Source: Thermus thermophilus (GTDB taxonomy: Bacteria > Deinococcota > Deinococci > Deinococcales > Thermaceae). Taken from it: a stretch of DNA of 64,000 nucleotides. The stretch spans positions 1,426,001 to 1,490,000 of the forward strand of contig NZ_AP025158.1 of NCBI RefSeq assembly GCF_019974155.1, read 5' to 3'. This document shows, in pieces, positions 7,414-42,243 of the stretch (positions are counted from its first letter, which is position 1; each line of letters begins with the position of its first letter). A model generated the notes under the pieces. The model did no database searches. It worked only from the letters and a program-made list of their open reading frames with translations, and was not told the origin of the DNA. A program made the translations under genes and the position numbers.

Positions 7414-8534
7414 GGATCGCCCTTTTTCTACCCTCCTTGGATGGCGGCGGCGCCGAGAGGATAAACCTTCTTCTCGCCACGGGTTTTCTTCAAAAGGGCG
7501 CACAGGTGGATCTGGTGTTGGCCAGGGCTCAAGGGCCTTACCTTGAAATGGTCCCTCGAGGCGTCAACCTGATCGATCTAAGGGCATCCAGGGTGCTGAC
7601 ATCTTTCCCTGCCTTGGTGTCCTACCTGAAGAGAGAAAACCCTTTTGTCTTGCTTTCCTCGCTGAGCCACGCCAACGTTGTGGCGGTCTGGGCGCGAGAA
7701 GTGGCACGAGTTCCAACAAAGGTGCTGGTCGCAGAGCATGTTCCCTTGAAAGCGAGCTACCGCAACAAGCATTTACGGTTGAACGAACAAATGGTGCGCT
7801 CCTTGATGGGCGGGGCCTACAGGAGGGCCGAGGCTGTCATAGCCGTTTCCAGGGGTCTTGGGAGGGAGCTGGTAGAGGGGTTCGGCCTTCCCAAGGACAA
7901 GATTCGGGTCATCTATAATCCCGTAATTCAGGACGAACTTTTCGAGAAGGCCAAAGAACCTGTTGAACATCCGTGGCTACTGCCTGGAGGGCCGCCTGTT
8001 TTTTTAGCCGTGGGCCGCTTGGTCGCGGAAAAAAACTTTGAACTTTTGATCCGGGCCTTCGCCAGGGTCAGGAGGGAAAGGGAGTCCCGCCTCCTCGTTC
8101 TGGGAGAAGGGCCTGAGCGGGCTCGCCTCGAGGGCCTGGTGCGAAGCCTTGGGCTGGAGGAACACGTGGACATGCCGGGGTTTGTCCCCAACCCCTATCC
8201 CTATATGGCCAAGGCCTCGGCCCTGGTCTTGAGTTCCCTATACGAGGCTCTGCCCACGGTGCTCATAGAGGGGTTGGCCCTGGGGGTTCCCGTGGTGGCT
8301 ACTGACTGTCCCTATGGTCCTGCTGAGATCTTGGAGGGGGGAAGATGGGGTATACTAGTGCCCGTGGGAAACGAGGAGGCATTGGCTCAGGCCATGGTGG
8401 AGGTTCTCCTTAAGCCCCCCTCAGAGGGCGAGAGGAGGGTTGCTCGCGAGTCCGCCATAGAGAGATTCGGCCTCCGAAAGGCCGTGAGCGAATACTGGGA
8501 TATAATCCAAGAGATCACCAGAAATGCGAGTTAA
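7410..8534 (+). CDS. Glycosyltransferase family 4 (GT-B)
   Basis: Retaining GT-B glycosyltransferase of 374 residues. The N-terminal domain begins MRIALFLPSLDGGGAERIN, a usual family 4 opening. The C-terminal donor domain has AVGRLVAEKNFELLIRAF and the conserved SSLYEALPTVLIEGLALG segment, whose glutamates contact the nucleotide sugar. Four-base ATGA overlap with the family 2 gene. The hydrophilic protein probably acts at the cytoplasmic membrane on lipid-linked intermediates. Specificity is unknown. Confidence 0.87.
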   Translation: MRIALFLPSLDGGGAERINLLLATGFLQKGAQVDLVLARAQGPYLEMVPRGVNLIDLRASRVLTSFPALVSYLKRENPFVLLSSLSHANVVAVWAREVARVPTKVLVAEHVPLKASYRNKHLRLNEQMVRSLMGGAYRRAEAVIAVSRGLGRELVEGFGLPKDKIRVIYNPVIQDELFEKAKEPVEHPWLLPGGPPVFLAVGRLVAEKNFELLIRAFARVRRERESRLLVLGEGPERARLEGLVRSLGLEEHVDMPGFVPNPYPYMAKASALVLSSLYEALPTVLIEGLALGVPVVATDCPYGPAEILEGGRWGILVPVGNEEALAQAMVEVLLKPPSEGERRVARESAIERFGLRKAVSEYWDIIQEITRNAS

Positions 8535-10038
8535 AAGGGCGGTACTGTTTTTAATTGTAACATCAGCTTCTCTAGCCACCAGCGCCAGCCTTGCTGGGGT
8601 CCTTTCTCTTGAGCGATTAAGCGTGGCGCTTGCCATTCTAGGTTCGTTGTTGGCGTGGTACGTGGTTTTTACTTTGAAGGATGGGAATTTGGCCAGTTTT
8701 TCGTTTCTTTTTGCTACGTTCTTTGCTCTTTACACATTGAGTCCTACTTTAGAAGGTCTTTTAGCGGGCGTTGATAGCTTAGCATCCTCTAAAGAAGTAG
8801 AAAGCGTTCTTTGGGGTCGTGAGATTCCCTTGGGATTTATATCTGTTTTATCCAATGTGGCTTTGCTGGCTTTTGCTATAGGACTTTTAAAAAGTCATCT
8901 TACTAATGCCAACCTCTTTGGTGCGCCATTGAATAAAACTTGCCTTTCACCTCGGTTGCGAACATCATCGGACATGTACGCTTGGCTCTATTACCTGGGC
9001 ATAGGCGCTTTTCTCCTGGGAATGGTTCTTTCCTTGTTAGATCTAACGAGAGTAGGAGGTCTGCAAGCCATTATTACCCCTCGCGGAGAACGACTTGTGG
9101 CTCTAGCGGAGAATAGGGGAAGTCTGCCTAGTTCCCCTCTCGTCTTTTCGGGGCTCGCTGTGGCTATACTTGGCTGGATTTATGCAGGAAATAAAAGGTT
9201 TCGTGGCCTACTTTTGATGGCTTTGGTCGGTTTGTGGCTTGTTTACTTGCTTATACAGGGTGATCGTAGATTTATTCTTTACACCCTTCTAGTGGGACTG
9301 GGGGTTGCGCACGTTTACCGGGGCCTCTCTCTTAAGTTGAGTTTGAGAGTTCTTTTTGTGATAACTTTGGTTATTTTGCTGTTTTCCGCCTTTGGGAACG
9401 TGAGGTGGATGCTTCCGATGCTTCTCGGTGGTACGTTAAGCCTTAGAGATGCTGGGTCCTGGATCGCCGAAAACTTCTCTTGGTCTTGGTTTGCGCCCTC
9501 CTCCAATGAGTTTATGGGGCCTTACATCACTCTGATTGTGACCGCTACGGATCCTAATTGGTGGTCTCTAAGTGGGGCTCCTTTATGGGGAATAAGTTAT
9601 TTTTATGCACTACCCAATTTGCTTCCTCGTAGCCTTTATCCGGGTGAAAAATGGGAGTCTTTGAGTTTTAAGTTCAGCGATTATGTGTATGTCAGCTATT
9701 TACCCCTAGATTTTCCCTTCCCCATAGGCTTCGGTTTTAGCCCCCTAGCCGAAGCTTGTTTGAACTTTGGACTAAGCGCCTGGTCCCCTTTTGTGATTTT
9801 TCTCCTGTGGGGTTGGTTTTCGGGTCAATTAGAGACCTGGGTGCGAAAAGGCCCTTTGCCTTATCGGGGCATCGTTTATGCTCTCCTTCTTCCCCAAGCT
9901 TTCAATTTAAACCGGATAGATTTTGTATGGGCTTTCCAAGAAGCGATTTACTTTGTATTTATGGGCCTTCTTTTGCTGGCTTCGGCTCGCGTCTTTTACC
10001 TGAGCATGCGTAGAATGAGGATTTTACCAGGTGGGTAA
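8524..10038 (+). CDS. O-antigen/repeat-unit polymerase-like membrane protein (Wzy-type)
   Basis: The 504-residue protein has roughly a dozen hydrophobic helices and a larger loop in the second half (about residues 310-400), the layout of Wzy and related O-antigen polymerases. There is little motif-level conservation in this class, so the call rests on topology and on its place between glycosyltransferase genes in a cluster that has a flippase and a Wzz-like protein. It is markedly AT-richer than the surrounding DNA, uses codons rare in its neighbours (TTA, ATA, TTT) and has no CTCGAG motif, all signs of transfer. It overlaps the upstream gene by 11 bases. Confidence 0.72.
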   Translation: MRVKRAVLFLIVTSASLATSASLAGVLSLERLSVALAILGSLLAWYVVFTLKDGNLASFSFLFATFFALYTLSPTLEGLLAGVDSLASSKEVESVLWGREIPLGFISVLSNVALLAFAIGLLKSHLTNANLFGAPLNKTCLSPRLRTSSDMYAWLYYLGIGAFLLGMVLSLLDLTRVGGLQAIITPRGERLVALAENRGSLPSSPLVFSGLAVAILGWIYAGNKRFRGLLLMALVGLWLVYLLIQGDRRFILYTLLVGLGVAHVYRGLSLKLSLRVLFVITLVILLFSAFGNVRWMLPMLLGGTLSLRDAGSWIAENFSWSWFAPSSNEFMGPYITLIVTATDPNWWSLSGAPLWGISYFYALPNLLPRSLYPGEKWESLSFKFSDYVYVSYLPLDFPFPIGFGFSPLAEACLNFGLSAWSPFVIFLLWGWFSGQLETWVRKGPLPYRGIVYALLLPQAFNLNRIDFVWAFQEAIYFVFMGLLLLASARVFYLSMRRMRILPGG

Positions 10039-10042
10039 TGTT

Positions 10043-11191
10043 ATGGAAAAGAAAATCCTAATGCTGATTACCGGCCTGGCTCGCGGGGGTGCCGAAACCC
10101 AACTCTTGCTTCTTGCGTCCGGGTTGAAGCGCCGGGGGTGGCAGGTCCGGGTGGTCAGCATGTTGCCCCCGGAGGACTTCGCCGAGGAGTTGCGGGAAGG
10201 GGGAGTCCCCGTGGACTCCCTTGGCATGACCAGGGGCGTGCCCGACCCCAGGGCTTTGTGGCGGTTCTCCCGGGTCTTGCGCGAGTTCAGGCCCTCCGTG
10301 GTCCACGCCCACATGATCCACGCCAACCTCCTGGCCCGGCTTACACGCCTCTTCGTCCGAGTGCCTGTCCTGGTCTGCACGGCCCACAACACCATAGAAG
10401 TTGGCCGTGGGTTCCGCACGGAGTCGGCCGTGCACCTCGCTTACCGTCTCACGGACCCCCTTTGCGACCTCACCACCCAGGTGTCCCTGGAAGGCTACCG
10501 CCGCTACCTGGAGGGCAGAGCCGCTCCCCCAAAAAAGCTGAGGTATGTCCCCAATGCGGTAGACCTTGAGCGCTTCGCGCCCGACCCCGCCCTCAGGCAG
10601 GAGATGCGCAAGGCGCTCGGCCTCTCCGAGGAAGCCTTCCTCTGGCTCGCCGTGGGCAGGCTCGAGGAGGCCAAAGACTACCCTACCCTTCTACAGGCTT
10701 TCGCCCTGGTGGTGAAGACCCATCCTAAGGCGACTCTCTTCGTAGTGGGGAAGGGGATCCTGGAATCGTCGCTACGGGACCTGGTCCGGTCTTTAGGTCT
10801 AGAAGCCTCGGTTCGATTTTTGGGGTTGCGCAAGGACGTGCCCGCCCTGATGTGCGCAGCAGATGCTTATGTGCTCTCCTCTGCCTGGGAAGGGATGCCC
10901 ATGGTTCTTCTCGAGGCCCACGCTTCCGGTCTGCCCGTGGTCAGCACGGACGTGGGGGGAGTCCGGGAAGTGGTCAGGGACGGCGTTTCTGGCTACGTAG
11001 TGCCGCCCAGAGACCCGAGCGCCCTAGCCGAGGCAATGAAGAGGTTGCAAAGCTTACCCAAGGAAAAGCAGCTTAGCATGGGCGTTGAGGGTCGCAAATG
11101 GGTGGAAGAAAACTATAGTTTAGAAACGCTTTTGGGTCGGTGGGAAGCCCTTTATAAAGATCTTTACCAGAAGAAGTGCGATCTAAAATGA
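10043..11191 (+). CDS. Glycosyltransferase family 4 (GT-B)
   Basis: GT-B enzyme of about 382 residues. N-terminal LMLITGLARGGAETQLLLLA is the typical acceptor-domain start. HAHMIHANLLARL and CTAHNT follow. The donor domain has VGRLEEAKDYPTLLQAF and SSAWEGMPMVLLEAHASGLP with the conserved E-x7-E pattern. ATG 10043 is preferred; an in-frame GTG at 10031 overlaps the polymerase stop. GC content returns to the Thermus norm in this gene, so the AT-rich island ends at its left edge. Sugar specificity unknown. Confidence 0.87.
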   Translation: MEKKILMLITGLARGGAETQLLLLASGLKRRGWQVRVVSMLPPEDFAEELREGGVPVDSLGMTRGVPDPRALWRFSRVLREFRPSVVHAHMIHANLLARLTRLFVRVPVLVCTAHNTIEVGRGFRTESAVHLAYRLTDPLCDLTTQVSLEGYRRYLEGRAAPPKKLRYVPNAVDLERFAPDPALRQEMRKALGLSEEAFLWLAVGRLEEAKDYPTLLQAFALVVKTHPKATLFVVGKGILESSLRDLVRSLGLEASVRFLGLRKDVPALMCAADAYVLSSAWEGMPMVLLEAHASGLPVVSTDVGGVREVVRDGVSGYVVPPRDPSALAEAMKRLQSLPKEKQLSMGVEGRKWVEENYSLETLLGRWEALYKDLYQKKCDLK

Positions 11192-12312
11192 AAAAAATTG
11201 CAATCATTGTCCCCTATGCCCCCACGTTTCTCCACTTTCGTGGTCCCCTGGTAAAGTACCTAAGGGAGCAAGGGCATGATCTTGCCCTGTTCGCCCCGGA
11301 CTGGACACCCGAGCTACGGCGGGCCGTGGAGGGTTTTTCCCAAGGCAATGTTGAGAGCTACCCCCTGGACCGAACGGGCGTGAACCCTCTTGGAGACCTC
11401 AGAACTCTGGCTGCCTTAACCTTCTCTTTCCTCCGCTTAAGTCCCAAGGTGGTTTTGACCTTCCAGCCCAAGCCCAACGTCTACGGCATCCTGGCGGCGG
11501 CCCTGGCGCGGGTGCCTCTACGAGCGGCGGTGGTGGAGGGGCTGGGTTTTGCCTTCACCCCCGGGGAGGACACGCTAAAGAAGCGGCTGGTGAGGGCGGT
11601 CCTCAAGGTGCTCTACCGCTTAAGCTTCGCCTTCGCCCACAAGGTGTTCTTCCTCAATCCGGACGACCTCCAGGAGTTCGTCTCCCAGGGCCTGGTGCGG
11701 CCGGAAAAGGCAGTCCTTCTGGGGGGCATTGGGGTGCCCCTGGAGGAGTGGCCCCCCGCCCCGCCACACCTTAAGCCCCTCACTTTCACCCTCATCGCTC
11801 GGCTTTTGAAGGAGAAGGGCGTGCGGGAGTTCGCCGAGGCAGCCCGCCGGGTCAAGGCCAAGCACCCCAAGGCGCGCTTCCTCCTCATTGGCCCTCTGGA
11901 CACCAACCCTGGCGCGATTCCCGAGGAGGAGGTACGCTCTTGGGTGGAGGAAGGGGTGTTGGAGTGGATTCCCTGGACGGACGACGTCCGGCCTTACCTC
12001 CGGCAGACGAGCGTCTACGTGCTTCCTTCTTATAGGGAGGGCGTGCCCCGCTCTACCCAGGAGGCCCTGGCCATGGCCCGGCCCGTGATCACCACGGACG
12101 CCCCGGGGTGCCGGGAGACGGTGGTGGACGGGGTCAACGGCTTTCTGGTACCCCCTCGGGACCCAGAAGCCTTGGCAGAGGCCATGGAGCGTTTCATCCA
12201 AGACCCTTCCCTGGTGGAGCGGATGGGGCGGGAAAGCCGTAAGCTAGCCGAGGAGCGCTTTGACGCCCACAAGATCAATGCTCGCCTTCTGAGCGAGCTT
12301 GGAATAAAATGA
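11188..12312 (+). CDS. Glycosyltransferase family 4 (PglA/WcfI-like)
   Basis: GT-B glycosyltransferase of 374 residues. It opens MKKIAIIVPYAPTFLHFRGP and includes TFQPKPNVYG and VVEGLGFAFTP, a combination seen in the family 4 group that acts directly after PglC-type transferases (PglA-like). The donor domain has IARLLKEKGVREFAEAA and PSYREGVPRSTQEALAMARP. ATGA overlap with the preceding gene defines the start at 11188; an upstream GTG at 11176 is less likely. It lies directly before the initiating sugar transferase, consistent with adding the second sugar. Confidence 0.85.
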   Translation: MKKIAIIVPYAPTFLHFRGPLVKYLREQGHDLALFAPDWTPELRRAVEGFSQGNVESYPLDRTGVNPLGDLRTLAALTFSFLRLSPKVVLTFQPKPNVYGILAAALARVPLRAAVVEGLGFAFTPGEDTLKKRLVRAVLKVLYRLSFAFAHKVFFLNPDDLQEFVSQGLVRPEKAVLLGGIGVPLEEWPPAPPHLKPLTFTLIARLLKEKGVREFAEAARRVKAKHPKARFLLIGPLDTNPGAIPEEEVRSWVEEGVLEWIPWTDDVRPYLRQTSVYVLPSYREGVPRSTQEALAMARPVITTDAPGCRETVVDGVNGFLVPPRDPEALAEAMERFIQDPSLVERMGRESRKLAEERFDAHKINARLLSELGIK

Positions 12313-28980: not shown

Positions 28981-29056
28981 GGGCCCGTAGCTCAGTGGAC
29001 AGAGCAGCCGCCTTCTAAGCGGTAGGTCGGGGGTTCGAATCCCTCCGGGCCCGCCA
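28981..29056 (+). tRNA. tRNA-Arg (TCT), integration site of the mobile element
   Basis: Acceptor GGGCCCG pairs with CGGGCCC. The anticodon arm is CCGCCTTCTAAGCGG, anticodon TCT; CCA is encoded at 29054-29056. The last 46 bases (29011-29056) recur exactly at 42198-42243, showing that the 3' end of the gene is the attachment core. The intact gene remains at the left border. Confidence 0.96.
29011..29056 (+). repeat. attL core (3' part of tRNA-Arg)
   Basis: 46-bp direct repeat, identical to 42198-42243, running from CCTTCTAAGCGG (anticodon loop) to CCGGGCCCGCCA. The integrase gene begins 77 bases away, as usual for tyrosine-recombinase elements. Confidence 0.9.
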
Positions 29057-29091
29057 CCTTCTGAAGGCAATACTTTCCTTTAGGAAAGCGA

Positions 29092-29154
29092 GGGGCCTCG
29101 AGGGGGGTGTTAGCGAATGGTTAGCTTATCCTTCAGGCCTCCCCTCGAGGCCCC
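29092..29154. repeat. 14-bp inverted repeat around the integrase stop
   Basis: GGGGCCTCGAGGGG at 29092-29105 and CCCCTCGAGGCCCC at 29141-29154 are perfect inverted copies separated by 35 bases. The loop contains the integrase stop codon and the GTTAGC arm site. It may terminate the leftward integrase transcript before it opposes the tRNA operon. Confidence 0.55.
29109..29130. promoter_or_regulatory. Candidate integrase/excisionase arm site (left)
   Basis: GTTAGC, five bases, then GTTAGCTTATC. The same arrangement with a different spacer recurs near the right end at 42074-42095. Paired direct repeats close to each attachment core are typical arm-type sites for tyrosine recombinases or accessory proteins. 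Confidence 0.6.
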
Positions 29155-30323
29155 ACCATGTCTTCCGGGTCAAGGACCCACCCCTGCCGCTCCTCCTTGA
29201 GGAGGTGGCGGTAAATCCCCAGGGTGATGTTGGGGTTGGCGTGGCCCATGCGCTCCGCCACCAGCTCCAGGGGGGCGCCGTTGGCCAGGAGGAAGCTCCC
29301 GTAGGTGTGCCTCAGGTCGTGGACCCGCACCGGGGGGAGGCCGAGGCGGGCCGTGATGCGGCGGAGGGTGTGGTTCAGGGCGTTGAGGTCCAGGGGCCTG
29401 TCCCCCGCGTTGCCGGGGAAGACCCAGGCCTCCGGGGAGAGGGGCCCCCCGAGGCGGGCTTCCCACCAGGCCCGGTACTCCCGGAGGCGGGCCAGGGTGG
29501 CGTGGGGGATGGGGACGGCCCGCCGCCCCGAGGCCGTCTTGGGCTGGGAGAGGATGGCCTGCTTCCCATCGGAGACCCAGGTGCGGCGCACGTGGAGGAG
29601 GCCGGCCTCGAGGTCCACGTCCCCCCACCGCAGGGCCAGGACCTCCCCCTTGCGCAGGCCGCAGGCCAGGCAGAGGCGCAGGGCCAGGGCGGTGCGGGGG
29701 TCGGGGTGGGCGTCTAGGGCCTCGAGGAGGCGCGCGGCCTCCTCCCGCTCCAGGGTCCTCCCCGCCTTTTCCCGCGCCTCCCCCCGGGGCACCCGCACCT
29801 TCACCGGGGCCACGGGGTTGCGGGCCACCAGCTCGAGGCTCAAGGCCTCCTCAAAGAGGGCGTGAAGCTTCTCCCGCACCTTCCGCACGGTGCGGGGGGA
29901 AAGCCCCCGCTCCAGGAGGGCGTCCACCACGCCCCGGACGTGGGCGGGCTGGACGGCCCCGAGCCGGAGGAGGCCGAGGGGGTCTTTGGCGGAGGGGTCC
30001 TTGAGGGAGGGAAGGGCGTAGGCCAGCTCCTGGCGGTAGAGGGCCAAGGTCCTGGGGCGCACCTCCCGGGCCTTCGCCTGAAGCCACCGCTCCGCCCAGT
30101 CCCGCAGGGTGATGCTCTCCGGGGGGGCGAGGAGGCCCCGGAAGTGCTTCAGGGCCATCTCCGCCCGCCACGCCTCCGCCTCCTTCTTGGTGGGGAAGGA
30201 CCGGGTGAGCTTGCGGGGCCTCCCCGTGGCCGGGTCGTGGCCCACGGTGATCTGGGCCACCCAGCGCTTCCGCCCCTTGTGGAAGAAGACCGTGCCGGTG
30301 CCCTTGGTGGAACGCCTGGCCAT
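29133..30323 (-). CDS. Tyrosine-family site-specific integrase
   Basis: Integrase of 396 residues. The N-terminal arm-binding region (TGTVFFHKGRKRWVAQITVG) and SAM-like core (LRDWAERWLQAKAREVRPRT) precede the catalytic domain. Catalytic residues are Arg in CGLRKGEV, Lys in QPKTASGRR, HDLRHTYGSF and the nucleophile Tyr in NITLGIYRH. ATG 30323 follows GGAGGGGAGG; a longer ORF starting at 30374 has no such site. It excises and integrates the element at tRNA-Arg. An IS4-type insertion begins 37 bases upstream of the start and separates the gene from its original upstream DNA. Confidence 0.95.
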   Translation of the reverse strand: MARRSTKGTGTVFFHKGRKRWVAQITVGHDPATGRPRKLTRSFPTKKEAEAWRAEMALKHFRGLLAPPESITLRDWAERWLQAKAREVRPRTLALYRQELAYALPSLKDPSAKDPLGLLRLGAVQPAHVRGVVDALLERGLSPRTVRKVREKLHALFEEALSLELVARNPVAPVKVRVPRGEAREKAGRTLEREEAARLLEALDAHPDPRTALALRLCLACGLRKGEVLALRWGDVDLEAGLLHVRRTWVSDGKQAILSQPKTASGRRAVPIPHATLARLREYRAWWEARLGGPLSPEAWVFPGNAGDRPLDLNALNHTLRRITARLGLPPVRVHDLRHTYGSFLLANGAPLELVAERMGHANPNITLGIYRHLLKEERQGWVLDPEDMVGPRGEA

Positions 30324-30359
30324 CCTCCCCTCCTCCCGCGCCTTCCCATTATGCTCCCC

Positions 30360-31533
30360 CTGAGCTCTCATCACTTTGAGGGCTGGGGCTTGACAAGGGA
30401 AGAGAAGAGGGGGGTAAGTAAGGTGTGCCGCCCACCACCCCCCTTTCCCAAGTTATCACCCTCTGGGTCCATAAGGTCTTCGCCTCCCTCAGGAAAACCA
30501 TCCGCTCCAACCTCGCCCTCTTCCTGTCCACCCTCCTCACTACCCCCCTGGACCCCACCCTCTCCGACCTCGCCCGCAGAACCCCCCTCCCCACCCTGGC
30601 CCAAAGCCGCCTCAATCGCCTCTGGCGCTTCCTCCATCACCCCACCCTGCAAGACCCCTGGGCCCTCACCGAAGCCCTCCTCCCCCTCCTCGTCCCTCGT
30701 TTCCCCAAAGACCGCCCCCTCCCCCTCATCGTGGACTGGACCTTCACAGAGGACGGTAGGCACCAAGCCCTGGTGGCCGCCCTTCCCCTCAAGGGAAGGG
30801 CCCTGGTGGTGGCCTTCGCTCTTCACCCCCTCTCCCCTTTCCCCAGTCAAAACCGGGTGGAGGAGGAGTTCCTCCACCGCCTGGGCCGCGCCGTCCAGGA
30901 CCTGGGATATACCCCCCTCTTCCTCCTGGACCGCGGCTTTGACCGGGTCTCCCTGATGCGAAAGCTCCAGGGGTGGGGCATGGGCTTCCTCATCCGCCTG
31001 CGGCAGAACCGGGAGGTGGAACCCCAAGGGGGGAAGCGCCTTCCCCTGAAGGAGGGCTACCAGCGTGTGGTCCACCCCCTGCGGGAGGAGGTCCGCCTTT
31101 TCGGACACGGTGGGGAGGGGGTAGAAGTCACCCTCCTGGTGTACCCAGGGGGTCGGGATCCCTGGTATCTGGCCTATTCGGGCCCTTTTGGGGGGGAGCC
31201 GCCCTATGGGTGGCGGATGTGGATTGAAGAGGGGTTTAGGGACCTGAAGGGGCAGGGGTTTGGGCTGGACCGCCATCGGCTGCGGACGGGGGCGAGCCTC
31301 AGGGGGTGGTTATGGCTTCTGGCCTTGGGGATGGCGCTCTTGGTCCTTCTGGGGGCGCGCTTGCAGGGCAGGGAATGGCTTCCCCGGCTTCTGGCCCATC
31401 CCGAGCGGCAAAGCCTCTTCCGTCTGGGCCGGATCGCCCTGGCCCAGGGGCCCCCGCCTTGGAGGGAAGCAGTGGTGGAGGAGCTGGTCAGGTTGCTTCA
31501 GGAACTGGGGGGAGGAAAGTGATGAGAGCTCAG
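30360..31533 (+). mobile_element. IS4-type insertion sequence, complete
   Basis: 1,174 bp with perfect 18-bp terminal inverted repeats (CTGAGCTCTCATCACTTT at 30360-30377, complement at 31516-31533). A 9-bp target duplication ATGCTCCCC flanks it at 30351-30359 and 31534-31542. Perfect ends and duplication show a recent insertion. It lies in the region upstream of the integrase gene. Confidence 0.92.
30425..31522 (+). CDS. IS4-family DDE transposase
   Basis: The 365-residue protein carries IVDWTFTEDG (first Asp), FLLDRGFDRV (second Asp) and WIEEGFRDLKGQGFGLD (Glu, the Y-(2)-R-(3)-E-(6)-K-like signature). The frame runs nearly from one terminal repeat to the other, as in compact IS4 elements. 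It starts at GTG 30425 without a strong ribosome-binding site, so an alternative start is possible. No disruption is seen, so it is probably active. Confidence 0.88.
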   Translation: MPPTTPLSQVITLWVHKVFASLRKTIRSNLALFLSTLLTTPLDPTLSDLARRTPLPTLAQSRLNRLWRFLHHPTLQDPWALTEALLPLLVPRFPKDRPLPLIVDWTFTEDGRHQALVAALPLKGRALVVAFALHPLSPFPSQNRVEEEFLHRLGRAVQDLGYTPLFLLDRGFDRVSLMRKLQGWGMGFLIRLRQNREVEPQGGKRLPLKEGYQRVVHPLREEVRLFGHGGEGVEVTLLVYPGGRDPWYLAYSGPFGGEPPYGWRMWIEEGFRDLKGQGFGLDRHRLRTGASLRGWLWLLALGMALLVLLGARLQGREWLPRLLAHPERQSLFRLGRIALAQGPPPWREAVVEELVRLLQELGGGK

Positions 31534-34618: not shown

Positions 34619-34946
34619 TCCTCACCTCCCGCCTCGCCCGGTCCCACACCCGGGCCAGGCGCTCCAACCGGGGCGGGTCCCCCGCCCAGACCCCCCAAAG
34701 CTCCACCTCCCGGGCCTCGGGGAAGGCCTCCTCGAGGACGGCCAACCGCTCCATAAGCCACTCCTCCCAGGAGGAGGCCCCGCCCCAGGCCCGGGCGTGG
34801 GCCTGAAGGTCCTCCTCGGGGGGCAGGAGGAGGCCCCAGTAGGCCACCACGTCCCCCACCACCACCCGGAGGCGGGGGGGCTTGAAGGCCCGGAGCTTGG
34901 CCACCAGGGCGGGGAGGTGGGGGCGGAGGGCCTGCCAGGCGTTCAT
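34611..34946 (-). CDS. Unknown 111-residue element protein
   Basis: MNAWQALRPHLPALVAKL begins a Trp-rich protein with LRVVVGDVVAYWGLLLPPEED and many acidic residues. It overlaps the RepA-like gene stop by four bases, so it is co-translated with the replication module and may be an accessory replication or copy-control factor. No family recognised. Confidence 0.55.
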   Translation of the reverse strand: MNAWQALRPHLPALVAKLRAFKPPRLRVVVGDVVAYWGLLLPPEEDLQAHARAWGGASSWEEWLMERLAVLEEAFPEAREVELWGVWAGDPPRLERLARVWDRARREVRNA

Positions 34947-36121
34947 ATCTCCACCTCCGGGCCCTCGAGGCTTGGGGGGGCTTCGCCCCCAGGGTTTTCC
35001 GCAAGACCAGGCACTTCCGCAAGGGGGTTTGCGGAAAACTTTTGCCCTTCCTCATCGGCAAAATCCGTTTTCTGCAAAGCCGCACCATCACGTAAGGGGG
35101 TTTGCGGCAAACCCGCCGTCAGCTCCGAAGGAGCTACCTTGAGCCGGTAGGCCACCGCCCCCCCTTGCCCCCCAAGCGCCAGGCGCTCCACCGCCCCGGC
35201 CTTGACCAGGGCGCGAAGGGCCTCCTCCGTGGTCCGCTCCCCGGCGTTCGCCCGCTCCGCCACCAGGCGGATGACCTCTTTGCGGGGCTTGGGCCCTTCC
35301 TCCAGCACCTCGAGGACGGCCCGCTTCGCCAGCTCCAGCTTGGAGGGGCGGGCCTCCTCCTCGGGGAGGTCGGTCAGGGCGAACTCCAGGGTGTCCGGCC
35401 CCCAAACGCGCTCAATCCCCAGGGGGTCCATGAGGGGGGCCAAGTTGTTCTTGAGGGCGTCCAGCTTGAGCACGTCCCGCCCCCCGGTGAGCTTGGGGGG
35501 GACCCGGGTGAGGAGGAAGGCGCTCCGGGCTCCGGCCAGCTTGTAGAAGCTCCCCGCCACCCCCCGCTCCAGGGCGGTGAGCCCCTGGACGGGCTTGGGG
35601 GTGTGGTCCAGGAGGAGGACGGCGGGGCCCGCCCGGGCAATCTCCTTCAGGTAGGCCATGACCTCCGCCACGTGGTCGGAACGCCGGGGGTCCACGAAGG
35701 GGAAGGCCGCGCTCCAGGAGTCCAGGACCACCAGGGCCACCCCCTGGCGGGCCATCTCCAGGAGGGCCTTCAAGCCCTCCTCCCCCAGGCCCTTGGTGGG
35801 GTCTTGGGGCTCCAGGTAGCGGATGCGCCCTAGGGCCTCCCCGTTCACCCCGAGCCCGGCGGCCACCTTGGGGTACCAGGGGCCTTGCAGGCGGGGGTCC
35901 GTGTCGTAGTCCACGTGCAGGACCTCCCCTTGGACCACCTCCCGCTCCAGGAAGGGCACCCCGGCGGCCACGGCCACCTCGAGGGCCGCCACCAGGGTGG
36001 ACTTGCCCACCCCTCCCGGCCCCCCGAGAAGGGCCAGGGTCCCTTGGGCCACCATTCCCTCCCACAGCCAGGAGACCTCCAACCTGGGGGGAAGCTGGTG
36101 GGCGGGGATGACCCGGAACAC
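34943..36121 (-). CDS. RepA-like RecA-fold ATPase (AAA_25 replicative helicase family)
   Basis: The 392-residue protein has a RecA-type ATPase core: Walker A GGPGGVGKST (Lys40), VLHVDYDTD, Walker B VALVVLDSWSA and LLLDHTPKPV. Hexameric RepA helicases of plasmids and many Prim-Pol elements have this form. A winged-helix-like segment follows (LEVLEEGPKPRKEVIRLV). The last 45 residues or so (QTPLRDGAALQKTDF and on) are encoded by one arm of a long inverted repeat and look like an add-on. It starts GTG next to the PrimPol stop, so the pair is co-translated. Confidence 0.82.
   Translation of the reverse strand: MFRVIPAHQLPPRLEVSWLWEGMVAQGTLALLGGPGGVGKSTLVAALEVAVAAGVPFLEREVVQGEVLHVDYDTDPRLQGPWYPKVAAGLGVNGEALGRIRYLEPQDPTKGLGEEGLKALLEMARQGVALVVLDSWSAAFPFVDPRRSDHVAEVMAYLKEIARAGPAVLLLDHTPKPVQGLTALERGVAGSFYKLAGARSAFLLTRVPPKLTGGRDVLKLDALKNNLAPLMDPLGIERVWGPDTLEFALTDLPEEEARPSKLELAKRAVLEVLEEGPKPRKEVIRLVAERANAGERTTEEALRALVKAGAVERLALGGQGGAVAYRLKVAPSELTAGLPQTPLRDGAALQKTDFADEEGQKFSANPLAEVPGLAENPGGEAPPSLEGPEVEI
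34985..35112. repeat. Left arm of an imperfect inverted repeat with iteron-like words
   Basis: Inverted copy of 36137-36266, about 80% identical by eye over roughly 100 bp with a little more similarity outward. It contains GTTTTCCGCAAGAC, GTTTGCGGAAAAC, GTTTTCTGCAAAG and GTTTGCGGCAAAC, which are variants of one word on both strands. It encodes the tail of the RepA-like protein. Confidence 0.75.
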
Positions 36122-37039
36122 TCAGACCACCCCCCTCCTTTTCCGCAGGCCCCCTATACGATAGGGTGCGGCTTTGCGGAAAACGGATTTTCGCGATGGG
36201 GACGGCTCAGGTTTTCCGCAAACGGCCTTGCGGAAGACCCCCCCGTTTGCGGAAAACCCTGGGGGCTCGAGGGCCAGGGGGCGGGAGGTCCCCACCTCCA
36301 GCCCCCACCTCGCGGCGGCCCGGGCTTCGGGCTCGGGGAGTCCGGCCTCGAGGGCCGCCCCCACCAGGGCCTCCTCCGCCTCCCGGGGGTCCAGGCCGTG
36401 GGGGAGGAGCCCCCCGGCGGCCACGGCGTAGCGGATGAGGGTGTTGTGCCTCTGCCCCTCCGGGGTGCGGGCCACTTGGGCGGCGTAGGCCTCGAGGAGG
36501 GCCCTCAAACGCTTGGGGCTCGCCCCTTCCACCGGGGTCCAAACTTCCCTCGGGGGCGGCGGCGGGGGGAGGAGCTTCAGGAGGAGGTCCTGGGGCACCG
36601 GGGGAAGCTCCTCCGGCCTCACCAGGGGCACCTCCCAGGCGTAGGTCCTCCCGTCCTTGAGCCGGGTAGGGGCGGCCACCACGTAGGCCCGCCCCATGCC
36701 CCGGAGGTCCACCCCCTCGAGGGCCCGCACGCTGGCGGAAAGCCTCACCCCTTCGGGGAGGCGGAGGAAGACGTGGCGGCCTCCCTTGGGGGTCCTCTGC
36801 CGGGGGGCGCCCTCGAGGGCCGGGAAGGCTTGGCGTAGCGCCTCCCAGGCCTCAGGGGCATCAACGTCCAGCACCAGCACCTCGGGGCCGGGGAGGAGGC
36901 CCACCCCGCACTCGGGGCAGGCCCGCCACCAGGCCTCGAGGGTGGCCGCCTCCCGGGAGGCCTCCTTGAGCCCGTGGGGGGTGAGCCCCGGATGGGGGCG
37001 CTTCTCCCCGGGGAGGAGGGGCAGGACGGCGTACCCCAA
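36122..37039 (-). CDS. PrimPol primase-polymerase, 5' end altered by an IS630-type insertion
   Basis: Archaeo-eukaryotic-type primase/polymerase (Prim-Pol domain) of 305 residues. The start LGYAVLPLLPGEKRP, GVGLLPGPEVLVLDVDAPEAW (catalytic Asp58 and Asp60), TPKGGRHVFLRL (catalytic His) and VDLRGMGRAYVVAAPT are all conserved and close to TthPrimPol as I remember it. A helical accessory domain follows (TPEGQRHNTLIRYAVAAGG). The start shown is TTG. The frame is open upstream (RAASRYAALGYAV) up to the insertion, so about a dozen native N-terminal residues may be displaced. The tail (SANGGVFRKAVCGK) comes from the inverted repeat. Confidence 0.85.
   Translation of the reverse strand: MGYAVLPLLPGEKRPHPGLTPHGLKEASREAATLEAWWRACPECGVGLLPGPEVLVLDVDAPEAWEALRQAFPALEGAPRQRTPKGGRHVFLRLPEGVRLSASVRALEGVDLRGMGRAYVVAAPTRLKDGRTYAWEVPLVRPEELPPVPQDLLLKLLPPPPPPREVWTPVEGASPKRLRALLEAYAAQVARTPEGQRHNTLIRYAVAAGGLLPHGLDPREAEEALVGAALEAGLPEPEARAAARWGLEVGTSRPLALEPPGFSANGGVFRKAVCGKPEPSPSRKSVFRKAAPYRIGGLRKRRGVV
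36137..36266. repeat. Right arm of the inverted repeat with iteron-like words
   Basis: Words TTTTCCGCA (36139), TTTGCGGAAAAC (36173-36184), GTTTTCCGCAAAC (36211-36223) and GTTTGCGGAAAAC (36245-36257). The same DNA as the left arm but read on the opposite strand: it encodes the C-terminal tail of PrimPol. Candidate replication origin, with the RepA gene between the two arms. Confidence 0.75.
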
Positions 37040-37073
37040 GGCGGCGTAGCGCGAGGCCGCCCGTTGTGCTAAG

Positions 37074-37595
37074 CTAAGTGCCCTCCCCCAAGATTTTCAA
37101 CTCCACACCTCCCAGGGCCTTTAGGGCCTGCACTACCGCGTCCTTCAGCTCTTCAAGGCTCCCGTAGTGCCGCCTCGGCATCAAAAACCCCTTCACCCGC
37201 CGCCAGATGTTCTCCATGGGGTTCAAATGGGGGCTGTACCGCGGCAGGTAGGCCACCTCCAGCCCCCGCCCTCGCCACACCCCCCTCCTCCCCTCCATCC
37301 CACGGGACCGGTGGAAAGGCGCGTTGTCCAGGAAAACCTTCAGGGGCTTGGTCAACCCCTCGGCCACCCGGTCCAGATACCCCCGCACCACCTCCCACCG
37401 CACCGGCCCCTCCAAAAGGGCAAAGAAAAGCCGCTCCCCCTCCCGGCCCCGCACCAGGTGCCCCACCACGTTCACCCGCCCCTCCTTGCCCCACGCCCGC
37501 GGCACCCCCTTCGCCTCCCCCCTCCGGCACCAGGCGTACGTGGGAGGCAGGGTCAGGGCAAACCCGCTCTCGTCCAAGTACCCCACCTCCATCAC
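37074..37595 (-). CDS. IS630-family transposase, catalytic second frame
   Basis: 173 residues carrying the DDE domain: LDESGFALTLPPTYAWCRRG (first Asp), KVFLDNAPFHRSRG (second Asp) and YLPRYSPHLNPMENIWRRVK (Glu). It is in the -1 frame relative to the upstream helix-turn-helix frame. The slippery run GCAAAAAGGGGGC just before the first stop would give a fused protein through AKKGAQEGVMEVGYLDE. This two-frame design is common in IS630 elements. Confidence 0.85.
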   Translation of the reverse strand: MMEVGYLDESGFALTLPPTYAWCRRGEAKGVPRAWGKEGRVNVVGHLVRGREGERLFFALLEGPVRWEVVRGYLDRVAEGLTKPLKVFLDNAPFHRSRGMEGRRGVWRGRGLEVAYLPRYSPHLNPMENIWRRVKGFLMPRRHYGSLEELKDAVVQALKALGGVELKILGEGT

Positions 37596-38067
37596 CCCCT
37601 CCTGAGCCCCCTTTTTGCCTCCTCTTCCTCCTTCACAAAGGCTTCCACCTCCTCCGCCTCCGGTCTACCCCTGGGCACGTACCGCGTCCGTCTCCACACA
37701 TACCCCATGGCCCTGAGGTGCCGGGCCACCACCTTGGGGGCCAGGCGGACCCCGAAGCGCTCGGCTATGGCCTCCGCAAGCTGCGGGGCGGTCCAGACCC
37801 GATCTTCCGCCAGTTTCTCCTCCACGAAGGCGGCCATCTCCGGGGTGAACTTCCTGGGGGCTCCCGGGGGTTTGCGGTAGACGAGGCCTTGGAGGCCCTC
37901 CCTCAGGAAGCGCCTGAGGACGAGGTAGACGGTGGTGCGGTCCTTGTGGAAGTGCTGGGCGATCTTTGGGGCGGTCCAGCCCTGGGCGGCCAGGCGGACC
38001 ATCCTCCTCAGGGGTCAGCTGGATCCGAAGGGGGGCTGCCATGTTGAGATGATAAAGGATTGGCACT
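37077..38067 (-). mobile_element. IS630/Tc1-type insertion sequence
   Basis: About 991 bp with imperfect terminal repeats beginning AGTGCC and sharing TCAAC at position 21-25, flanked by the TA target duplication (37075-37076 and 38068-38069). It sits immediately upstream of the PrimPol reading frame and has replaced its natural upstream region. It contains two transposase frames. Confidence 0.8.
37592..38002 (-). CDS. IS630-family transposase, DNA-binding first frame
   Basis: 136 residues with two helix-turn-helix domains: LAAQGWTAPKIAQHFHKDRT and a second (WTAPQLAEAIAERFGV). Ends after EEEEAKRGLRRG. The likely native start, MAAPLRIQLTPEE at 38042, is in a different frame from MVRLAAQGW, so an indel near 38000 may have damaged the 5' end. 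The ORF could still start at GTG or ATG near 38002. Works with the catalytic frame through -1 frameshifting. Confidence 0.75.
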   Translation of the reverse strand: MVRLAAQGWTAPKIAQHFHKDRTTVYLVLRRFLREGLQGLVYRKPPGAPRKFTPEMAAFVEEKLAEDRVWTAPQLAEAIAERFGVRLAPKVVARHLRAMGYVWRRTRYVPRGRPEAEEVEAFVKEEEEAKRGLRRG

Positions 38068-38451: not shown

Positions 38452-39039
38452 ATGAAAGGAAACGCGCGCTTTTTGAGCCTTCTGGCCCTTCTGTCCCTGT
38501 CGGCGCTGGCCCAGCCCGGTCCCCCGCCCCCGGGGAACCCTCCCCCGCCTCCTGCGGCCCCCCAAGCGGCCCCCTACCAGGACTACCGCCATATGGTAAG
38601 GGCCCAGCGGGAGGTCGCCCGGGCACAGTACCTGGCGGGCCTTGTCCGTCCTTCCCCCCTCAAGGGTGAGGCCGATGGCCTGCTCAGGTGGGCCCAGGGG
38701 CTCCAGACCCAGGACCCCTTCCGGGCCAAGGAGCTCGCCGCCGCCGCGGCCAATATCTACGAAGGCCTTCTCCTGGTGGAGGGGGCTCCCTATCCCCCGG
38801 TTCCACGGGGCCCCGAGGGGTGGTCCAGGGCCTACGAGGCCCCCTACCGGGCCCAAGAGGCCATCGCCCGAACCGAGATGGAGGCGGTCTACTACCGGGT
38901 CAATAACCCCCTGGTGCGCAGGCTCCTCGAGGAGGCCAAGCGCCTCCTCTCCCAAGGGAACGACCTGGCCAAGGCCGAGGCCGCCCACCGCCTGGCCCGC
39001 GCGGCCCATCACCTGATCAAGGCGGAGAGGGGCTTCTAA
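38452..39039 (+). CDS. Exported protein, first gene of the cargo operon
   Basis: 195 residues with a Sec signal peptide (FLSLLALLSLSALAQ), a proline-rich linker (PPPPGNPPPPPAAP) and a helical domain of about 150 residues (YRHMVRAQREVARAQYLAGL). No Cys after the signal, so soluble periplasmic. The ribosome-binding site GAGGAGG is strong. No family recognised; the helical mature part with alternating Arg/Glu could be a ligand- or stress-sensing four-helix bundle. It leads an operon with a two-component system. Confidence 0.7.
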   Translation: MKGNARFLSLLALLSLSALAQPGPPPPGNPPPPPAAPQAAPYQDYRHMVRAQREVARAQYLAGLVRPSPLKGEADGLLRWAQGLQTQDPFRAKELAAAAANIYEGLLLVEGAPYPPVPRGPEGWSRAYEAPYRAQEAIARTEMEAVYYRVNNPLVRRLLEEAKRLLSQGNDLAKAEAAHRLARAAHHLIKAERGF

Positions 39040-39097
39040 AAGGGCTCCGAGGGGTCCCTCCTGTGGGGCCCCTCGCCCTTACCGGAAGGGGATGGAG

Positions 39098-39532
39098 ATG
39101 AACAGGACCCCCTTGAGCAAAGCCCTCATCCTGGCAGGGGGCCTTCTGGCCTTGGCCGCCTGCGCGCCCTACCAACCCGGCCCCTGGCCGAGGCCCCTGG
39201 GGCCAAAAGGGCTCGAGCACTTCCTGGAACTTCTCTTGAGCCTCTTGCTCCTCGGCCTTCTGGTCCTAGCGACCGTCTGGCTCCTCGGCCAGATCCGTCG
39301 GGGAGGTGGGAGGGCAGAGGTCTTTCCCCCTTTGCGCCCAAGGAGCCTCCTCGTCCCGCGGCTTACCGCCTTGCGGGAACAGGCCGCCTCCTTGCCCCGG
39401 GAAAAGGGGGAGCGGGTCATGGCCCTGGTGGTGGAGGCCTGGGAGGCCTGGGGCAGGGGGGAGGTGGAGCGGGCAGAGGCCCTGACGGCCCGGGCCGAGG
39501 CCCTGCTTGACCTCCTGCGGGACCAGGCCTAG
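39098..39532 (+). CDS. Membrane lipoprotein-like protein of the cargo operon
   Basis: About 144 residues. The N-terminus MNRTPLSKALILAGGLLALAAC has a lipobox-like LAAC, followed after a short linker by a hydrophobic helix (LELLLSLLLLGLLVLATVWLL) and a soluble helical part (VMALVVEAWEAWGRGEVERAE). An ATG six bases upstream (39092) is an alternative start. Two bases separate its stop from the next ATG. Function unknown; the envelope location fits input to the sensor kinase. Confidence 0.65.
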   Translation: MNRTPLSKALILAGGLLALAACAPYQPGPWPRPLGPKGLEHFLELLLSLLLLGLLVLATVWLLGQIRRGGGRAEVFPPLRPRSLLVPRLTALREQAASLPREKGERVMALVVEAWEAWGRGEVERAEALTARAEALLDLLRDQA

Positions 39533-39533
39533 A

Positions 39534-40025
39534 ATGCCAAGGACCGTGGAAGGGGGAAGGGCGCGGCGCAGACCCGTATTCGCCCTCCTGGGCATGGCCT
39601 CCGTCCTGCTCTTTCTAGCCTGGGGGCAGGCGCCCTCCCCTCTTCCCCCCGAGGCGGCCTTTGAACGGGTGAGGGCCTACCTAGGCGGGGGGAGCCTGGA
39701 CGAGGTGTACAAGTACGCCTACGGCCCCAAGCCCAAGGAGGGCTGGACCGTCTATGAGTTCGGGCTTCCGGGGGTGGAGGTGTGGCTGGAGGTCGGAAGC
39801 CTTAGGGTGGTGCTGTACCGGCCCAAGAAGCCTCCCAAGCACCTCGCCGAGCCCCACCTTCCCTTCCCCCAGGTCCTCTCGCGGGTGCGGGCCCGGTACG
39901 GGGAGCCCTGGAGGCTGGAGCTAAAGCCGAAACCCAAGGAGAGGCTCTTGGTCTGGGAGGCCAGGGGGCTTTTTGGCGAAGTCTGGCTGGAAGCCGCCAC
40001 GGGAAGGGAGGTGCTTCGGCGGTGA
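39534..40025 (+). CDS. Exported PepSY-like protein of the cargo operon
   Basis: 163 residues. An N-terminal membrane or signal helix (FALLGMASVLLFLAWGQA) is followed by two PepSY-like half-domains: LDEVYKYAYGPKPKEGWTVY and VWEARGLFGEVWLEAATGRE, the second with the usual V-D/E-x3-G ending. PepSY domains often inhibit proteases or report envelope state and are common beside two-component systems. Its TGA lies in the GTGA overlap with the response regulator start. Confidence 0.65.
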   Translation: MPRTVEGGRARRRPVFALLGMASVLLFLAWGQAPSPLPPEAAFERVRAYLGGGSLDEVYKYAYGPKPKEGWTVYEFGLPGVEVWLEVGSLRVVLYRPKKPPKHLAEPHLPFPQVLSRVRARYGEPWRLELKPKPKERLLVWEARGLFGEVWLEAATGREVLRR

Positions 40026-40678
40026 GGCTCTTGCTGGTGGAGGACGAGCCCGAGGTGCGCCGCCTGGTCAGGGAAGTCCTGGAGGAGGCGGGCTGGGCCG
40101 TGGACGAGGCCGCCGGGGTGGCCGAGGCTCTGGGACTCCTGGAGGCCTTCCCCTACGACCTCCTGGTGCTGGACCTGGCCCTGCCTGACGGGGACGGCCT
40201 GGAGGTTCTCCGCCTCGTCCGCTCCCGGGAGATGAGCCTGCCGGTCCTGGTCCTCACCGCCCGCGACGCCCCCCAGGCCCGGGTCCTGGGCCTGGAGGAG
40301 GGGGCCGACGACTACCTGGTGAAGCCCTTCTACCCCCAGGAGCTGGTGGCCCGGGCCCGGGCCCTCCTGCGGCGGAGCCGGGGCCTGGCCCACAACTGGC
40401 TGAGGCGGGGCCGGCTGGAGCTCGACCTGGAGGGGCGCCAGGCCTTCTGGGAGGGAAAGCCTGTGCGGCTTTCGGCCCGGGAGTACGCCCTTCTGGAGGC
40501 CCTGGCCCTTTGGGAGGGGGGGTTCGTTCCCCGGGAGCTCCTCTTGGAGAAGGTGTGGAACGGGGAGGAGAGCGTTGAGCCGCGCACCGTGGACACCTAC
40601 ATCAAGTACCTCCGCCGCAAGCTGGCCCCCGAGGCCATAGAGACCGCCCGCGGACTGGGGTACCGCTTCGTGGGATGA
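40022..40678 (+). CDS. OmpR/PhoB-family response regulator
   Basis: 218 residues. Receiver domain MRLLLVEDEPEVRRL with phospho-acceptor Asp51 (LLVLDLALPDGDG), the conserved Thr in VLTARDAP and Lys in DDYLVKPFYP. A C-terminal winged-helix domain follows, with EPRTVDTYIKYLRRKL and TARGLGYRF. It should bind DNA when phosphorylated by the adjacent kinase. GTG start overlaps the PepSY gene, and its stop overlaps the kinase start (ATGA). Confidence 0.94.
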   Translation: MRLLLVEDEPEVRRLVREVLEEAGWAVDEAAGVAEALGLLEAFPYDLLVLDLALPDGDGLEVLRLVRSREMSLPVLVLTARDAPQARVLGLEEGADDYLVKPFYPQELVARARALLRRSRGLAHNWLRRGRLELDLEGRQAFWEGKPVRLSAREYALLEALALWEGGFVPRELLLEKVWNGEESVEPRTVDTYIKYLRRKLAPEAIETARGLGYRFVG

Positions 40679-41877
40679 GCCTGCGTGCCCGCTTCGCTCT
40701 CTACGCCTTCGGGGTGGTGGCCCTGACCCTCCTGGTTTCGGGCCTGGCCCTACAGAAGGCCCTCTGGTTCTTCCTCCTGCGCCAGGTGGACCGGGAGCTT
40801 TGGAACCTGCTGGACACCTCCCTCGCCAACCTGCGGCCCGACGAGGAAGGGGTCTTGCGCCTGGACCTGGATGCGGAGCTCTTCGCCTCCTTAAGGCCCG
40901 ACACCCTGGTGCTGGTGGTGGGCCCCCAGGGGCTCCAGGACGCCCTGGGGATCCTGCCCCCCCTGGACCGACTGGAGGCCCTGACCCGGGGGGAGGCCGG
41001 GGACTACCGGGTCCAGGCCCGGACGGCGGACGGGGTGAGGGTGCTCGCCGCCCGCCACCTTGGGGAGCTTCGGGAGTTGGCGTCCCTGGTGGACCGGCTC
41101 CTGCCCGTGGTCCTCCTCCTCGCAGGGGGGACGGCCCTCCTCTCGGCGCTTTTCCTCTCCTCCCGGGCCCTCGCCCCCCTGAGCCAGGCCACCCGGGCCG
41201 CCCTGGACCTCGCCCGGGACCGGGCCTGGAACCGGCGCCTCCCCCTTCCCCTTGTCCAGGACGAGGTGGCCCAGATGTTGGAAGCCTTCAACCAGGTCTT
41301 GGATACCTTGGAGGGAGCCCTGGACGCTGAGCGGCGCTTCGCCCAGGAGGCCGCCCACGCCCTCCGCACCCCGCTGACGGTGCTCCTGGGCCATCTGGAA
41401 CGGGGCAGGGTGGAGGAAGCCAGGGCCCAGGCCAGACGACTTGGGGAACTGGTAGAGCAGCTCCTCTTCCTGGCCCGGTCCGAGGCGGACGCCCTGGCAT
41501 GTGCCCCCCTGGAACTGGACACCCTGGTCTTCACTGAGGCCGAGTCCCTGCGCCCCGCCTTCCAGGCCAGGGGGTTGCGGCTTCTCCTGGACCTCCCAGA
41601 GGAACCCGCCCGGGTCCTGGCCAACGAGCAGGCCCTCCGGGCCATGGTGGTGGCCCTGCTGGAAAACGCCCTGCAGCACACCGCCAAGGGGGGAACGGTC
41701 CGGGTGGAGGTGCGGGGGAGCGAGCTTCGGGTGCAGAACGCCCCGAGCCACCCCCAGCCGGGCACAGGCCTCGGGCTCAGGCTGGTGAACACCCTGGTGC
41801 GGGCCCAGGGGGGAAGCCTCCAGACGACAGAAGACGGGCAGGGGTTTCAGGTGACCCTCCGCCTCGCCAAAGGCTAG
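40675..41877 (+). CDS. Sensor histidine kinase
   Basis: 400 residues, partner of the response regulator. Two membrane helices (FALYAFGVVALTLLVSGLAL and LLPVVLLLAGGTALLSALFL) enclose a periplasmic sensor of about 110 residues. HAMP-like linker and phospho-acceptor H box FAQEAAHALRTPLTVLLGHL (His228) follow, then N box ENALQHTAKGGTVRVEV and G box GTGLGLRLVN. The catalytic domain is somewhat compact. It ends the cargo operon near the right attachment site. Confidence 0.93.
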   Translation: MSLRARFALYAFGVVALTLLVSGLALQKALWFFLLRQVDRELWNLLDTSLANLRPDEEGVLRLDLDAELFASLRPDTLVLVVGPQGLQDALGILPPLDRLEALTRGEAGDYRVQARTADGVRVLAARHLGELRELASLVDRLLPVVLLLAGGTALLSALFLSSRALAPLSQATRAALDLARDRAWNRRLPLPLVQDEVAQMLEAFNQVLDTLEGALDAERRFAQEAAHALRTPLTVLLGHLERGRVEEARAQARRLGELVEQLLFLARSEADALACAPLELDTLVFTEAESLRPAFQARGLRLLLDLPEEPARVLANEQALRAMVVALLENALQHTAKGGTVRVEVRGSELRVQNAPSHPQPGTGLGLRLVNTLVRAQGGSLQTTEDGQGFQVTLRLAKG

Positions 41878-42197: not shown

Positions 42198-42243
42198 CCT
42201 TCTAAGCGGTAGGTCGGGGGTTCGAATCCCTCCGGGCCCGCCA
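42198..42243 (+). repeat. attR core (partial tRNA-Arg)
   Basis: Exact 46-bp copy of the tRNA-Arg 3' part. No 5' half of a tRNA precedes it, so it is not a gene. It marks the right border of the element. Confidence 0.92.

Follow-up and report, generated by a model that had tools for sequence, protein, structure and literature searches.

Mirror-image arms of iteron-like words at repA as a probable replication origin of a Thermus integrative element

An integrative element of Thermus thermophilus carries two arms of a long inverted repeat at its repA gene, and we consider it likely, with a probability of roughly 0.7, that the two arms together form the replication origin of the element, each arm being a set of putative iterons for RepA. 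Directly seen in the sequences are the architecture of the arms, their mirror symmetry, the link between word and RepA, and a short core that turns up again in other replicons; binding, opening, priming, direction and core function are inferred. The idea of an origin had been put forward in a first-pass annotation of the same DNA, and it is now supported by the iteron-like words themselves, by the occurrence of mirrored arms at 12 of 13 RepA loci, and by the linkage of the words to RepA. If this reading is right, the PrimPol/RepA integrative elements of Thermus would gain an origin.

The stretch of DNA that was analysed (64 kb, referred to here as the window) contains the element, which is about 13.2 kb long and is integrated at a tRNA-Arg gene. 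It is bounded by a 46-bp direct repeat, attL (29012–29057) being the 3′ end of tRNA-Arg and attR (42198–42243) an exact copy of it. A tyrosine integrase gene lies at the left end (29133–30374, minus strand; Pfam PF00589, E 3e-27). The replication genes are repA (34943–36121, minus strand), which encodes an AAA_25 ATPase (PF13481, E 5e-22), and primPol (36122–37075, with an ORF at 36122–37039, minus strand), which encodes a Prim-Pol domain (PF09250, E 9e-31). An IS630-family element (about 37071–38067; ends TAAGTGCC/GGCACTTA; TA target) sits within the first codons of the gene and interrupts the N-terminus of PrimPol. No normal start codon is visible upstream of the interrupted primPol, and hence the PrimPol of the window copy may be inactive; given the loss of this N-terminus to IS630, the copy as a whole may be decayed. 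Between IS630 and attR (38452–41877) there are genes for small secreted-type proteins and for a pair of response regulator and sensor kinase; these may be cargo that the element carries.

The left arm (arm B, 34985–35112, plus strand) lies in the 3′ tail of repA. The right arm (arm A, 36137–36266, minus strand) lies in the 3′ tail of primPol, upstream of repA, and has the mirrored architecture. When the left arm was aligned locally with the reverse complement of the right arm, the score was 154; about 2,000 pairs drawn at random from the window gave at most 75. BLAST matched 34985–35111 with 36139–36266 at 81% identity over 128 bases (E 4.7e-25), which bears out the inverted copies described in the first-pass annotation, the coordinates of which were right to 1–2 bases. 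Besides these two, BLAST found no further good copies of the arm sequence in the genome.

The word TTTGCGGAAAAC occurs exactly four times in the 2.17-Mb genome, each time within the arms, while its reversed control does not occur at all. When up to two mismatches were allowed, each arm contained at least four words, again as first noted. In arm B these are B4 (34994–35005, minus strand), B2 (35067–35078, minus) and B1 (35101–35112, plus), each with one mismatch, and the exact word B3 (35028–35039, plus); a degenerate word (35012–35023, minus) stands at the place predicted by the mirrored spacing. Arm A has exact words at A4 (36173–36184, plus), A3 (36211–36222, minus) and A1 (36246–36257, plus), a word with two mismatches at A2 (36227–36238, plus), and an outer degenerate word with three, A5 (36138–36149, minus). 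The gap between B3 and B2 holds a core sequence, CCTTCCTCATCGGCAAAA (type I; 35046–35063, plus), and that between A4 and A3 holds CCGTCCCCATCGCGAAAA (36188–36205, minus; matching the core pattern at G000:C1:1462188-1462205). There is no long AT-rich stretch at the window arms; short A/T tracts bracket the core.

Searches for RepA in Thermus, in its family and in its class yielded 13 loci with the full gene. The truncated loci L068 and L069 were left out, and L075 and L076, the same element in two genomes, were counted once. Two mirror-oriented arms were found at 12 of these loci, in five genera (the window, L071–L077, L167–L170 and L183); the thirteenth, L182, has one clear arm and the second as traces only. 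Relatives devoid of the repeats had been named beforehand as the case that would tell against an origin, and no RepA relative with intact flanks was found without any arm. No relatives of RepA were detected among plasmids, phages, viral contigs and genome contigs, and none of the arm DNA among plasmids.

The words of the upstream arm follow one layout, in which a word is followed after 19 bp by a second, after 16 bp by an inverted word, and after 38/41 bp by a further word; the other arm is its mirror image. In the window, the layout takes in 36246, 36227, 36211 and 36173 of arm A, and 35028/35067, 34994 and the degenerate 35012 of arm B. Multiple short words with regular spacing (19/16/38–41), flanking repA, are the mark of an iteron origin. 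It may be noted that the near-palindromic core misleads on orientation: the arms of L072–L075 were considered as direct repeats, which was ruled out by word order and spacing, both of which show them to be mirrored.

The pair of arms either flanks repA or lies entirely downstream of it. A spacing of 70 bp separates the two arms of L169, which are situated at the end of repA and beyond it; those of L071 follow the gene side by side. As both arms of L169 lie at or after the end of the gene, it is the pair of arms that is the conserved unit, and not its position around repA. These placements bear on the possibility that the words are operators for RepA or for a regulator, controlling the transcription of primPol–repA and the copy number, with the origin elsewhere. 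Plasmid initiators often repress their own genes, and arm A is suitably located, just upstream of the repA start. Arm B, however, is at the end of repA, as are both arms of L071 and L169 or beyond it, and two mirrored arms holding a core of oriC and plasmid origins exceed the needs of an operator. Operators with the origin elsewhere thus appear unlikely; operator and origin roles can coexist.

The arms had also been described as encoding the C-terminal tails of both replication proteins. This is correct for the window copy (RepA ORF 34943–36121, PrimPol ORF 36122–37039, both on the minus strand), but it does not hold throughout: the arms of L071 and L169 lie wholly or partly beyond the repA stop codon, and the arm-encoded peptides have no conserved sequence in common. 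Since the arms are non-coding in some relatives and the peptides are not conserved, the coding overlap looks incidental.

Every flank of a RepA locus has repeated words, which are common to both arms of an element and differ between RepA clades. The word is TTGGCCCAAAAT in L072, L075 and L167, TGTTCCAAAAC in L073 and L074, ATGCTCCAAAAC in L168, TGTCGTCAAATC in L071, ACTTCATCAAAT in L169, TTTGCGCTAAAT in L170, and GTTGCATCAAAT in L183. When L072 was compared with L073/L074, the PrimPols were 87–93% identical and the RepAs 39%, and the words were wholly different (TTGGCCCAAAAT versus TGTTCCAAAAC), even in the arm at PrimPol's own end. Words are common to L073 and L074, with RepAs 96% identical, and to L072 and L075, with RepAs 93% identical. 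As the words differ where the PrimPols are nearly identical but the RepAs divergent, they follow RepA and not PrimPol. Word specificity that tracks the initiator, as in iteron origins, is thus found across the elements. The similarity between the sequences of L072 and L074 ends at the first word of the arm, as if arm, repA and arm had been swapped between elements like a cassette. In L075 (8935–10200), the N-terminal half of PrimPol is replaced and joined to the usual C-terminal half, the arms and RepA.

We scanned 714 kb for the spacing of the arms, blind to the word, allowing up to 7 mismatches in 36. The scan detected the arms of the elements, three solo arms and one site in L081, an ICETh2-like element; there was no match in 26 chromosomal dnaA loci or in the rest of the window. 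Within the 64-kb window, only the two arms appeared at up to 7 mismatches, the next-best sites having at least 10; arm B matched at 34994 with spacing 18/16/39. Reversed sequence is unusable as a null here, since reversal preserves mirrored inverted repeats, and the specificity of the scan rests on the lack of matches elsewhere in the scanned DNA. The solo arms, which have no adjoining RepA, are in L067 (about 10052–10155), L108 (about 7024–7120) and L167 (452). That of L067 precedes a 192-aa gene and hicB.

The solo arms count in favour of a MITE- or REP-like mobile or palindromic repeat, and a mobile repeat inserted twice at gene ends had been offered as the alternative to an origin in the first-pass annotation. 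Such a repeat does not sit well with a genome that has only two good arm copies and no dispersed copies independent of the element, nor with orientation, spacing and location that are conserved in five genera while the word changes with RepA. The covariation of the word with RepA largely refutes this explanation, which we regard as extremely improbable.

RepA is a relative of the RSF1010 RepA helicase. Its closest solved helicase by sequence is 1g8y (E 6.7e-5), and its predicted fold matches 1nlf (RSF1010 RepA) with a TM score of 0.68 by target. The model (mean pLDDT 69) comprises a helicase core and a C-terminal winged helix at about residues 261–327, and the tail encoded by the arm is disordered in it. 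Because the words track RepA, the model has a winged helix and the protein is related to RSF1010 RepA, RepA is the likely reader of the words, which would be its binding sites. If so, the elements would provide a natural series of initiator–word pairs for studying DNA recognition by a winged-helix helicase.

For the origin reading, we propose that each arm would serve as a nucleoprotein assembly site, with three or four 12-bp element-specific words around the core. On binding the words, RepA would open the core region and load as a helicase on the single-stranded DNA, and PrimPol or a host primase would make primers on the exposed strands. The mirror symmetry of the arms leads us to propose two oppositely directed complexes, which would give divergent synthesis, like the inverted ssiA/ssiB of RSF1010. 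For that plasmid, the mechanism involving RepA, RepB′, RepC and ssiA/ssiB has been described (PMC4234260, PMC6925257). The element resembles the oriV of RSF1010 (IncQ) in having a RepA-family helicase, a primase of the archaeo-eukaryotic (AEP) superfamily, iterons and two opposite hairpin-forming sites; both proteins are encoded in the window element, and its two mirrored, hairpin-forming arms are candidate priming sites. Unlike RSF1010, it is without a separate RepC, no gene for a RepC-like iteron-binding protein having been recognised among the element proteins scanned, and the winged helix is fused to the helicase instead. Moreover, each site in the window has its own iterons, and the sites are about 1 kb apart around repA and not adjacent in one oriV. 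A likeness to pRN1 lies in the Prim-Pol replication module and the C-terminal winged helix. In pRN1 a stem-loop of about 100 nt, the sequence of which varies between relatives, is located just after the replication gene orf904 (PMC4234260); pRN1 differs in having one stem-loop, no iterons and one fused protein. The double-stranded origin that was first suggested is unlikely in the rolling-circle sense, since the replication genes proved to include no HUH or Rep_trans nickase, and no such domain was detected in the element proteins scanned.

Hairpins of inverted words around the core could act as priming sites. When single strands of the arms were folded as DNA, most of those tested folded better than shuffles (z −5.1, −2.8, −4.1, −4.5, −2.5), and the second arm of L074 gave z 0.2. 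Such folding is no evidence for a hairpin in the cell, because inverted protein-binding words give the same folding. It has a bearing, too, on whether nested hairpins might act as RNA in the 3′ ends of the primPol and repA messages, as an attenuator, a processing signal or an antisense target. This is improbable in our judgement: the core is followed by an A-run and not a T-run, so that it is no terminator, the two arms have opposite orientations to transcription, and the second arm of L074 does not share the folding. The core was itself tried as a terminator and rejected on the same A-run after the hairpin in the arms.

Clusters of inverted words also occur at parS-type sites, and the arms might accordingly be a centromere-like or incompatibility site for partition and copy control. 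We give this little credence, as ParA/ParB were not found in the element proteins scanned (a subset of the ORFs), the words track RepA, a ring ATPase, and the core is common to oriC and plasmid origins.

The element also resembles ICETh2 of T. thermophilus HB27, which likewise is integrated at a tRNA gene and carries int together with genes for PrimPol and a helicase; ICETh2 is at tRNA-Val, whereas the window element is at tRNA-Arg. Relatives of ICETh2 in which a P-loop protein replaces Hel have been noted, and no origin, iteron, inverted repeat or core-like sequence is described in that paper (PMC7693054). The ICETh2-like elements, with Hel in place of RepA, have no arm at the PrimPol end. 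In four of them (L079–L082), iterons (CCCCCGCAA or AACCACCGCA) and core-like sequences are present in the 3′ coding tail of the Hel gene. Excised copies of ICETh2 replicate little, and PrimPol is not needed for replication (PMC7693054). Against the arms being an origin stand these ICETh2 results, the interruption of PrimPol in the window, the solo arms without RepA, and the core itself, degenerate forms of which occur in some arms and many oriCs.

Within the 38–41-bp gap between the inner words there is a conserved GC core of 15–18 bp. It is of two related types, CCTTCCTCATCGGCAAAA (type I) and the palindromic GCCGTCCAGGACGGC(AAAA). Over 27 Thermus genomes, the core pattern gave 21 matches, compared with about 10 for the reversed control. 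Matches beyond the arms lay in the iteron clusters of elements whose replication proteins are of other kinds (L086/L106, L103/L107, L097/L114), among them DUF7146 primase/DUF3987 helicase elements, and also in 10-kb plasmids and in one chromosomal oriC. Matches in L090 and L091 had no clear replicon context and were excluded from the evidence; exact matches inside genes (L085, L092, L094, L095) were taken as chance. The L114 element (7327–11437, at about 1.09 Mb in the same genome as the window) has a DUF3987 helicase, a PolA-like polymerase and its own ACCCGGCAA-like words and cores, and adjoins the same IS4-family transposase as window 30425–31522.

Thirteen pTT8-family plasmids have the core in a conserved block that follows the Rep gene. 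Four pTthSNM plasmids carry it at the 5′ end of REP, and a fifth, pTthSNM1-1f, at the record edge; REP regions of this group replicate in HB27 and drive working shuttle vectors (PMC12724237). When 40 kb of the HB27 megaplasmid pTT27 were scanned with the type I profile, the top match (19.5 bits) fell between repA and parA; nine iterons and an AT-rich stretch adjoin it, and 221 kb of background contained no match as good. This site was missed by the type II profile; the type I match was spotted by eye and then scored. That the core adjoins Rep genes and iterons in these plasmids and elements, and Hel genes in the ICETh2-like elements, is further support for an origin. Like the arms, Thermus oriC, pTT8 and pTT27 have a core belonging to this family, which lies next to the Rep gene or to initiator boxes, or between such boxes; but their boxes belong to DnaA or other Rep proteins and there is no mirrored arm pair. 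In the literature searched, we found no paper containing the core palindrome. As the core is common to other Thermus origins, it probably serves a host step, such as bending, melting or primosome entry, and not element-specific recognition. It may be recognised by a host factor, be a melting or bending element, or be convergent.

The core profiles were trained on cores of the elements and small plasmids only, and the type II profile was built without oriC sequences. Of 26 Thermus oriCs, 25 had the best type II match at one shared slot flanked by DnaA boxes, with a mean z of 2.4 against dinucleotide shuffles; the 26 are related to one another and so do not count as independent events. In G000 the DnaA boxes flanking the core are 44 bp apart, compared with 38–41 for the words in the arms. 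One of these oriCs, that of L135, has the perfect 15-bp palindrome. In the oriCs of related genera, the best match of the type I profile was in the slot in three of nine, which counts against the origin reading.

We tentatively suggest, at somewhat less than even odds, that one origin core, set in a gap of some 40 bp between initiator boxes, is common to the host oriC and to Thermus mobile elements and plasmids whose initiators are unrelated, only the boxes being exchanged. If true, an unrecognised host initiation factor would dock at the shared core, and the two arms of the element would be mirrored imitations of the box–core–box unit of oriC. The origin reading, if right, also singles out a short sequence of the chromosomal Thermus oriC, present again in five or more further kinds of replicon, to which a host factor may bind. 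After dnaA in L115–L140, a variable palindromic insert between two DnaA boxes is followed by TTATCCACATATCCACA, and beyond this come DnaA-trio-like CTA repeats and a stretch of AT-rich DNA. The corresponding slot of the related genera holds a TCGATNCCNATG-like sequence.
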